Below, piece by piece: positions 2,285 to 3,648 of a stretch of DNA of 64,000 nucleotides (its first letter is position 1; each line of letters starts with the position of its first letter). The translations under genes were made by a program, and so were the position numbers. The stretch lies in NCBI GenBank assembly GCA_013823945.1, contig PNMZ01000002.1:496001-560000 (forward strand). Reading direction: 5' to 3'. Source of the stretch: a bacterium (GTDB taxonomy: Bacteria > Armatimonadota > Fimbriimonadia > Fimbriimonadales > Fimbriimonadaceae). The notes beneath the pieces are model-generated. The model was not told the DNA's origin, did no database searches, and saw only the letters and a program-made list of their open reading frames with translations.

Positions 2285-2311
2285 TGGGGTGCCTTACTCA
2301 AGGGCACCCCA
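2285..2311. terminator. Hairpin between convergent genes, possible bidirectional terminator
   Basis: A 9-bp perfect stem (TGGGGTGCC and its complement, 2285-2293 with 2303-2311) lies between the stop of leuB and the stop of the convergent sponge-like gene. A clear T-run is absent on either side, so it may be a Rho-assisted or weak terminator. Confidence 0.5.
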
Positions 2312-2338: not shown

Positions 2339-2653
2339 CTAATCTGTGCTGGAGTGTTTTGAGCGAGAGCCGATCAACCCCTGTTTTTCGCGTCGTCTTC
2401 GCCGCAAAAGCAATGCTTCCCTTGCCAGATCAAGGTGGTACAGAGCCGTTGCATTTTCCTCGCACGAAAGCTCGCGCCCCTGGAAATCCAACAGCTTTTC
2501 TTGCAGAACTCCGATGACATCTTCAATTCGACATCCGTTCGTTCCAACATGATCAGGGTCACCCCCATGTTGAAATTGTATTCTGATGAACTCCGACTCG
2601 ATGAGGGCATCGCTGCCGTCCATGTGACGGAACTTCTCCATGTTTTCACTCAT
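2339..2653 (-). CDS. Small protein resembling the Acb2/Tad1 cyclic-nucleotide sponge family
   Basis: The 104-residue product has, from about residue 24, the order IRIQFQHGG, VGTNGCRIEDVIGVL, SCEENATALYHLDLAREAL and a final R-R-R-x-x-x-G-x-x-G segment. This is the layout I know from phage-type Acb2/Tad1 helical-hairpin proteins: FQHG, VGxNG, a Cys-x-x-Asn before a Leu-rich helix, then Arg-rich and Gly-x-x-Gly near the end. Phage members bind cyclic di- or trinucleotides (Acb2) or cyclic ADP-ribose isomers (Tad1) and so block CBASS or Thoeris defence. No phage genes surround this one. It lies 26 bases after an 88-residue gene and both are downstream of a c-di-AMP riboswitch. Function here is inference; the family call is from pattern memory. 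Confidence 0.72.
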   Translation of the reverse strand: MSENMEKFRHMDGSDALIESEFIRIQFQHGGDPDHVGTNGCRIEDVIGVLQEKLLDFQGRELSCEENATALYHLDLAREALLLRRRRREKQGLIGSRSKHSSTD

Positions 2654-2679
2654 ATTCGCAACTAGCGCTAATGAGCTCG

Positions 2680-2946
2680 TTAGTGGATTGTCTCAGATCG
2701 GAATTCTTTCCGTTTCGACTTCAGTTTCAAGATCGTTTCAGTAAGCTGAGCAATCTCTTTTCGTCGTCCCGGGCCAAGCGTTTCCATTTCGTTTGAAGAC
2801 AGTCGCTTAAACGATGCTTCCATCCGGTCGCGGATCATGCCGGCTTCATCAACCAATTCTTCAAACTTTGTTGCCTTTTCTTGCGTTGGGACTTCAGATC
2901 GCTCAACAATGCTGGCTTTCCGCATAATCTGGCTCACGAAGCTCAT
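2680..2946 (-). CDS. 88-residue helical protein of unknown function, first gene after the c-di-AMP riboswitch
   Basis: A highly charged, Glu/Lys/Arg-rich helical protein with no transmembrane segment, no Cys pairs and no known motif; residues 20-80 probably form two helices (a hairpin) broken around LGPGRRKE. The ATG at 2946 follows GAGGTG at a spacing of about 8 bases, so unlike many neighbours it has a leader and a ribosome-binding site. It is the first gene of a two-gene transcript with the Acb2/Tad1-like protein. A role as partner of that protein, or in c-di-AMP physiology, is suggested only by the shared riboswitch. Confidence 0.65.
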   Translation of the reverse strand: MSFVSQIMRKASIVERSEVPTQEKATKFEELVDEAGMIRDRMEASFKRLSSNEMETLGPGRRKEIAQLTETILKLKSKRKEFRSETIH

Positions 2947-2996
2947 CTGGTCACCTCAACAACTACGAACGGGCCTGATTGTTTTGTGGTTTTCAT
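2943..2996 (-). CDS. Possible 17-residue upstream peptide between riboswitch and 88-residue gene
   Basis: An ATG just after the aptamer opens a 17-codon frame (MKTTKQSGPFVVVEVTR) whose TGA overlaps the ATG of the next gene as ATGA. This arrangement would couple translation of the 88-residue gene to the peptide. There is no strong Shine-Dalgarno sequence before it, so it may be chance. Confidence 0.3.
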   Translation of the reverse strand: MKTTKQSGPFVVVEVTR

Positions 2997-3002
2997 GGTG
3001 TC

Positions 3003-3129
3003 TTGATTGCGCCTACGAGGTTAGCTGCCGGGTTAGGTTCAAGATTGACCTGAGCGAATCCTTCGCTCTTCACCCCTGCTAGTTCCTAGCGGTGGTTCCC
3101 CCGTTCTGGGCATTGCCCAAATTCGACGT
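3003..3129 (-). promoter_or_regulatory. c-di-AMP riboswitch (ydaO-yuaA type)
   Basis: Read on the minus strand, the segment contains in order a small GGGC-AAT-GCCC hairpin, GAACGGGGGAACCA, a hairpin, GGGGTGAA, a GAGCGAA/TTCGCTC hairpin, an AGGT/ACCT stem and CAGCTAACCTCGTAGGCG. These are the conserved blocks of the ydaO-yuaA aptamer, in the right order and spacing; CGTC at the 5' end can pair with GGCG at the 3' end to close P1. A TAGAAT box just upstream would start transcription at the aptamer edge. Known members are mostly OFF switches that bind c-di-AMP. I see no strong terminator between aptamer and the first gene, so the expression platform is unclear; it may act on translation. Confidence 0.9.
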
Positions 3130-3135
3130 ACCTAA

Positions 3136-3141
3136 ATTCTA
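3136..3141 (-). promoter_or_regulatory. -10 box upstream of the riboswitch
   Basis: TAGAAT on the minus strand, about 7 bases before the first base of the aptamer near 3129. It identifies the riboswitch and the two small genes as their own transcript, separate from the VirK-like gene. Confidence 0.5.
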
Positions 3142-3158: not shown

Positions 3159-3614
3159 TTAGTTTGCAACGAAAAAGGATATGCCCTGCTCGTCCTTCCC
3201 GTTGCTGATCTTGCCCTGGAACGACTCGTCCATCAAAATTTCGTAATCCTTGGTCGCCAAGTACCGGGCCGTGATCTCAACCAAGTTGTCTTCATAGATG
3301 CGGAATCGAACATAGTTGTGAACGGTTCCGTAGCTAGGATGTGCAATCAAAACGGTCTTAGATGTCGCGATGTAGGCTTTTTCATTCTTCACAACCCCAC
3401 GATCAAACCACTCCCAACTGTCAATTTTCATCCCACCAATCGCCTTGGGTGCGGGCACCACGTCATCGCCCAAAAACAAGAACGTTTTGGAGTAATCCAC
3501 GACAACCTTGACCTCATTTCCAGCTTTCAGAGCCGATAGGACATCCTCAAATGAGTTGAGTCGAGAAGGTGCCAGTGCAACCGCTGCCAAAACAAGGGGA
3601 AGTGTGGAAATCAC
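3159..3614 (-). CDS. VirK-family exported protein
   Basis: The product has an N-terminal signal-like stretch (ISTLPLVLAAVALA) and then the VirK pattern: SFEDVLSALKAGNEVKVVVDY, PKAIGGMKIDSWEWFDRG, KAYIATSKTVLIAHP and YVRFRIYEDNLVEITARYL. VirK family proteins are small, probably periplasmic or exported, and their biochemical role is not settled. A longer frame could start at a TTG at 3629, but CATAAT ends 6 bases before the GTG at 3614, and that start also gives a clean signal peptide, so I chose 3614 (about 151 residues). It is divergent from the hydrolase at 3661 and separated by a tiny shared promoter region. Confidence 0.85.
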   Translation of the reverse strand: MISTLPLVLAAVALAPSRLNSFEDVLSALKAGNEVKVVVDYSKTFLFLGDDVVPAPKAIGGMKIDSWEWFDRGVVKNEKAYIATSKTVLIAHPSYGTVHNYVRFRIYEDNLVEITARYLATKDYEILMDESFQGKISNGKDEQGISFFVAN

Positions 3615-3619
3615 AGTTG

Positions 3620-3626
3620 CATTATG
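3620..3626 (-). promoter_or_regulatory. -10 box of the VirK-like gene, leaderless type
   Basis: CATAAT on the minus strand (3621-3626) ends 6 bases before the GTG chosen as start at 3614. It lies inside the longer reading frame that would begin with TTG at 3629, arguing against that longer start. Confidence 0.5.
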
Positions 3627-3648
3627 CAACGGATTCCCATGAGTCCTG

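Follow-up and report, generated by a model that had tools for sequence, protein, structure and literature searches.

A Tad1-like protein encoded in a c-di-AMP riboswitch operon of Fimbriimonadales chromosomes

Phages are known to use Tad1 and Acb2 to counter nucleotide-based immunity. Why, then, would a bacterial chromosome carry a gene resembling them behind an RNA that senses c-di-AMP, in an operon with a second small protein? The question was raised by a locus in a 64,000-nucleotide stretch of a Fimbriimonadaceae genome (hereafter the window), for which a first-pass annotation had proposed a ydaO-type aptamer with its own −10 box, an 88-residue helical protein and a 104-residue protein of the Acb2/Tad1 family.

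The minus strand carries, in this order, a −10 promoter box (TAGAAT, 3136..3141), a complete c-di-AMP aptamer of the ydaO/yuaA type (2995..3138), a Shine-Dalgarno sequence (GAGGTG, 2952..2957), an 88-aa ORF (2680..2946) and a 104-aa ORF (2339..2653). When the covariance model RF00379 was run with Infernal (cmscan), the aptamer matched model positions 1–134 of 134 with 66.6 bits (E = 3e-13), against a gathering score of 38 bits, and it was the sole RF00379 match in the 3.16-Mb genome. The aptamer was found in all eight members of the genus. The −10 box lies directly before it, and TATAAT or a close variant abuts the aptamer in each of the eight species (exact TATAAT in four). The Shine-Dalgarno sequence belongs to a GGAGGTG-like block, 5–8 nt before the start codon, that is kept in the genus. 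Approximately 48 nt separate the end of the aptamer match from the start codon of the 88-aa gene, and 26 nt separate the two ORFs. The whole arrangement, including the −10 box, the aptamer and both ORFs, is retained in 8/8 species. These results bear out the proposed aptamer and promoter, and the coordinates given in the first-pass annotation proved correct.

The operon is flanked upstream by a VirK-domain gene (3159–3629) and downstream by a convergent leuB gene (1196–2269). The VirK-domain protein (PF06903, E = 7.6e-10) is encoded on the same strand and immediately precedes the riboswitch. At the other end, where leuB and the Tad1-like gene converge, we read from the sequence an inverted repeat between the two, GGGGTGCC...GGCACCCC (2286..2310, no strand assigned), which is probably the shared transcription end of both genes; the terminator scan missed it because it has no T-run. 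No intrinsic terminator was found between the aptamer and the 88-aa gene by the terminator scan or in the genus alignment, and folding the Shine-Dalgarno region with and without the aptamer in eight species did not distinguish an on switch from an off switch. A 6-base pairing of the aptamer segment AACCUCG with the Shine-Dalgarno sequence is possible in the genus but absent in a more distant linked genome (G018), and it was set aside because it is not kept there.

As an RNA, the aptamer is a typical representative of RF00379, comparable to those of the ydaO/yuaA, kdp and cell-wall peptidase operons. The known targets of c-di-AMP riboswitches, as given in part in PMC6488665 and PMC9960051, are K+ transport, osmolyte and cell-wall genes. 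In contrast to these operons, the target here is a homologue of a nucleotide sponge.

The 104-aa ORF contains the pattern FQHG / VGxNG / CxEN / RxxxR / GxxG, which had been noted in the first-pass annotation and is the Tad1 pattern. When the single sequence was searched against all PDB chains, only Tad1 proteins and the phage protein gp184 were retrieved (best E = 1.4e-4). A family profile built from 48 relatives matched CmTad1 (E = 9.3e-16), gp184 (2.4e-12) and CbTad1 (1.7e-10) among PDB chains. The 104-aa protein also matched PHROG 2428 (E = 4.6e-13), as did 48/48 host members (best E = 4.2e-21); PHROG 23843 was matched by 48/48 host proteins and PHROG 22140 by 44/48. We refer to the protein as Tad1-like, not as Tad1, because the HMM of PF24729 (Acb2_Tad1_hairpin) recognized 0/48 host members at E = 0.1 yet matched a phage Tad1, that of Bacillus phage SPG24, used as a positive control (E = 6e-8). 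No match above cut-off was obtained with Pfam, NCBIfam or PADLOC for either the 88-aa or the 104-aa protein.

AlphaFold2 models (pLDDT 73.6 and 78.4) consisted of two strands and two long helices, the latter corresponding to the two long C-terminal helices of the Tad1 protomer fold. Foldseek ranks 1–20 were all Tad1 (TM 0.66 on the query), after which the E-value rose to 3. VIA-align gave Z = 9.3 over 94–95 residues against CmTad1 and CbTad1, with unrelated rows at 6–7 and none above 6.7. The comparison with T4 Acb2 (anti-CBASS 2; Vs.4, PDB 7uq2) gave Z = 5.5 over 52 residues; the two proteins have a two-helix hairpin in common, but this score falls among those typical of helical hairpins in general, the structural match is much weaker than that to Tad1, and no sequence similarity to Acb2 was found. 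The proposed membership in an Acb2/Tad1 family is thus better read as likeness to Tad1, to which the sequence and the predicted fold both point; the sequence similarity is to Tad1 alone. The model matched Tad1 first and best and contained the hairpin. On this sequence and model evidence, the 104-aa protein is a genuine Tad1 homologue.

The likeness to the solved Thoeris anti-defence 1 proteins (CmTad1, PDB 8kbb/8kbc/8kbd; CbTad1, PDB 7uav/7uaw/8smd/8kbe/8kbf) extends over the last 75–80 residues of the host protein and comprises the helical hairpin preceded by two short strands, together with shared conserved residues that include the N, R and R of the putative pocket region. The N-terminus of the host protein is shorter, in contrast, and retains only part of the β-sheet region of Tad1 (β1–β4): strands are predicted only at residues 17–19 and 24–27, residues 1–13 are modelled with low confidence, and sequence homology starts at residues 16–22. 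The host start is conserved as MSENMExxRxxDGS, another difference from Tad1. Fourteen residues are invariant in five host and four phage proteins, including Q28, G31, G37, N39, G40, E44, Q58, C64, E66, N67, R84 and R88. N67, R84 and R88 are invariant in all 48 host proteins and four phage Tad1-like proteins, and position 57 is mostly F, H or Y. These four positions align with F82, N92, R109 and R113 of CbTad1, which we take to be its ligand contacts. The C-terminal tail reads QGVxGT in most hosts, replacing the RGVEGT of most phages. Because this tail has been described as contributing to the ligand pocket of Tad1 (PMC12043709), the ligand preference of the host proteins may differ from that of their phage relatives. 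The C-terminal domain of the host proteins is also common to phiKZ-type gp184 (PDB 8y6v) and to the members of PHROG 2428, 23843 and 22140; unlike the host proteins, these phage proteins are longer and are annotated as unknown or structural.

Building on the riboswitch, the Tad1 homology and fold, and the vertical inheritance and recurrent linkage in seven genera described below, we propose that this is a c-di-AMP riboswitch operon whose Tad1-like product oligomerizes and, as part of a feedback device, binds a cyclic nucleotide, with c-di-AMP or a coupled molecule as the likeliest ligand; we regard this proposal as evenly balanced between right and wrong. The riboswitch would set the level of the small helical protein and the host Tad1 homologue according to c-di-AMP. 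By analogy with Tad1, the Tad1-like protein may form oligomers, and these may bind c-di-AMP or a molecule whose level varies in step with it. The cell would then sense c-di-AMP by RNA, and the protein would buffer, store or read it; if c-di-AMP switches the genes on, the result would be a negative-feedback buffer. A buffer or receptor for c-di-AMP or a coupled molecule appears to be the simplest reading. We put forward a more specific form only tentatively: a housekeeping sponge in which the oligomer binds c-di-AMP itself and, its synthesis being set by the c-di-AMP riboswitch, serves as a dedicated buffer or receptor for this essential second messenger, so that the Tad1 fold would have a place in host physiology, either as the source of phage sponges or the reverse.

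The signal background of these bacteria bears on the nature of the ligand. A c-di-AMP cyclase is encoded in 60/61 relatives, including this genome, which also encodes a PgpH-type 7TM-HD protein. Tad1 ligands include cyclic dinucleotides, of which c-di-AMP (cAA) is bound weakly and others more strongly, as are cyclic trinucleotides (PMC12043709), and Acb2 binds 2′,3′-c-di-AMP with a Kd of ~62 nM (PMC12657218). It is conceivable, if rather unlikely, that the Tad1-like protein binds another signal, such as a cADPR isomer, a cyclic trinucleotide, or a signal made by a phage or used in host defence, with c-di-AMP simply adjusting its expression to stress or osmotic conditions in general. This would agree with published work in which characterized Tad1 prefers gcADPR and cyclic trinucleotides to c-di-AMP (PMC12043709), with the TIR_2 proteins present in 16/41 relatives and the SMODS nucleotidyltransferases present in 6/41, and with the fact that most Tad1-like copies have no riboswitch. 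However, a search of this genome with the two Pfam models for TIR_2 and the SMODS CD-NTase gave no match; the two most frequent sources of the signals targeted by phage Tad1 were thus not found here. Several other genomes with a Tad1-like gene are likewise without TIR_2 and SMODS matches; the protein is kept in all of these genomes, and within the scope of the same two models its presence does not track TIR_2 or SMODS genes.

A second alternative, which we consider distinctly unlikely, is that the Tad1 fold has been kept while its binding role was lost, so that the protein is now a helical scaffold acting together with the small helical protein. Some phage homologues are indeed annotated as virion or structural proteins (the Eowyn structural protein and putative structural proteins), and the neighbouring riboswitch-controlled genes also encode small helical proteins. 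The highest conservation, on the other hand, falls on a set shared by host and phage proteins (Q28, G31, G37, N39, G40, Q58, C64, E66, N67, A77, R84 and R88), and an identical conserved set in both is more in keeping with a retained function than with a free scaffold. In addition, the helical protein and the Tad1-like gene are not tied to each other, as each occurs without the other.

The 88-aa ORF itself is a real coding sequence, as proposed. When its first 72 codons were compared among species, the differences at codon positions 1/2/3 numbered 7/5/40, 12/9/41 and similar, and this third-position bias indicates that the ORF is translated and under purifying selection. A search of 61 genomes found the protein in 8/8 species of the genus and nowhere else. 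In the other genera of the linked set, the first-gene slot is filled by a small helical protein of another sequence family, except in two genomes, G018 and G069. Small helical proteins are the first gene behind 38 of the 118 riboswitches of the order (training sequences included), most of them without a Tad1-like gene, and they fall into class A (~100 aa; loci L079, L106, L119, L132, L136, L156, L160, L169 and L179, among others) and class B (~130 aa; L112, L173, L175, L184 and L185, among others). Several class B proteins have a conserved C-terminal tail of the EYPFMEYSS type. Neither class was seen at Tad1-like loci that lack a riboswitch. The N-terminus of the 88-aa protein, SFVSQIMRKASIVERSEVPTQEK, weakly resembles SFVTKIVDETRSLVRSEKPVHEK of class B, and its profile gave weak scores against the helical proteins of classes A and B (P = 0.006 and 0.015). 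Phasin and COX4 identities were considered and rejected, since their matches to the 88-aa protein were weak and far below cut-off. The first-pass annotation had cast the 88-residue protein as a partner of the sponge. Such a dedicated role is doubtful, because the protein is restricted to one genus and helical proteins of other sequence families fill its slot elsewhere, including behind riboswitches that have no Tad1-like gene.

The abundance of these helical proteins behind riboswitches would also fit a third alternative, in which the helical protein is the sole target of the riboswitch and the Tad1-like gene lies further along the operon by chance. We consider this very unlikely in view of how the riboswitch and the Tad1-like gene are linked. 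In 15 genomes from seven genera (g1, g8, g11, g12, g18, g22 and g25), a Tad1-like gene has RF00379 upstream on its own strand, no more than 1 kb away, whereas chance placement would give ~0.02 such linkages in the set. On the Tad1-like gene tree, which is short and has many unresolved forks, the linkage needs four changes, at least two of them forced by well-supported (starred) branches, indicating more than one gain or loss. The Tad1-like gene comes first in G018 and G069, lying 31–37 nt downstream of the aptamer with no gene between, which shows that the linkage is independent of the helical protein. Because the linkage recurs across these genomes and genera, changes repeatedly on the tree and places the Tad1-like gene first in two genomes, c-di-AMP control of the host Tad1-like protein is well supported. 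Such control is not universal, since no riboswitch lies within 1.5 kb of the genes for 43 of the 58 distinct Tad1-like proteins in the order. Conservation in relatives, which the first-pass annotation had made a check of its proposal, thus extends to the riboswitch with both genes in 8/8 species of the genus, and to the riboswitch with the Tad1-like gene in seven genera.

The same genome carries a second Tad1-like copy (G000:C7:24401-24703, locus L188), which is 80% identical and has no riboswitch. It adjoins a GH38 alpha-mannosidase gene, an arrangement kept in 22 loci.

The Tad1-like family was found in 68/291 Armatimonadota genomes, all from two families of one order (Fimbriimonadales) and representing 26 genera, mostly with one copy per genome and with two in the genus of the window. 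Its hosts are mostly uncultured bacteria. Among named genome contigs, 49 Tad1-like loci lie in Armatimonadota records with two exceptions by title, one named only 'bacterium' and another designated an archaeal MAG, the latter presumably a mislabelled bin. The neighbours of the gene include leuB, alpha-mannosidase, M14 and M3 peptidases, a Y-family DNA polymerase and DUF1800, and a scan of IMG/VR found no viral contig with a relative of the family. Given its distribution in one order, its housekeeping neighbours and the result of the IMG/VR scan, the Tad1-like gene is a vertically inherited host gene and not phage cargo, as the first-pass annotation had surmised from the lack of phage genes around it. 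A recently acquired phage anti-defence gene in a prophage remnant, which the phage or prophage origin of the closest solved relatives might suggest, is hardly credible and largely refuted by the presence of the gene in 26 genera of one order at one or two copies per genome, by the housekeeping context and by best phage matches below 42% identity. Chromosomal location, vertical inheritance and a c-di-AMP riboswitch set the host protein apart from Tad1.

Each part of the operon is of a known kind. In the open-licence literature searched, we found no description of a riboswitch joined to a nucleotide-sponge homologue, in line with the first-pass annotation, which knew of no such host system. We know of no earlier case of a Tad1/Acb2-type sponge domain in normal signalling. 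These observations suggest that a sponge-domain protein has moved into, or is native to, the second-messenger control of its host. If the proposed feedback device is real, it would add a new kind of c-di-AMP effector, from a phylum in which next to nothing is known of c-di-AMP biology, and would also inform the question of where phage sponges originated.

The survey of c-di-AMP riboswitches in Fimbriimonadales and relatives also revealed a separate group. The letters of the 16S anti-Shine-Dalgarno sequence, ACCTCCT, follow 41/118 of these riboswitches, mostly within CACCTCCT and in nearly all cases 60–190 nt downstream; a control region further along contained them in 1/118. These loci (L070, L072, L074, L103, L120, L121, L127, L128, L134, L140, L142, L144, L148, L152, L153, L159 and ~25 more) have no clear protein gene or ORF close behind the riboswitch, and only 1/41 also has a small helical protein. 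No other Rfam family was matched at the 20 loci scanned. The letters usually stand as AGCACCTCCTGTTG ahead of a terminator-like hairpin; in 16 aligned cases, this block was nearly the only one conserved and was followed by such a hairpin. The loci may encode a small RNA that is controlled by c-di-AMP and has a seed able to bind Shine-Dalgarno sequences. In other families of the phylum, at L082, L117 and L131, a c-di-AMP riboswitch lies directly before genes for small proteins that, judged by their letters only, resemble STAS/anti-sigma antagonists.
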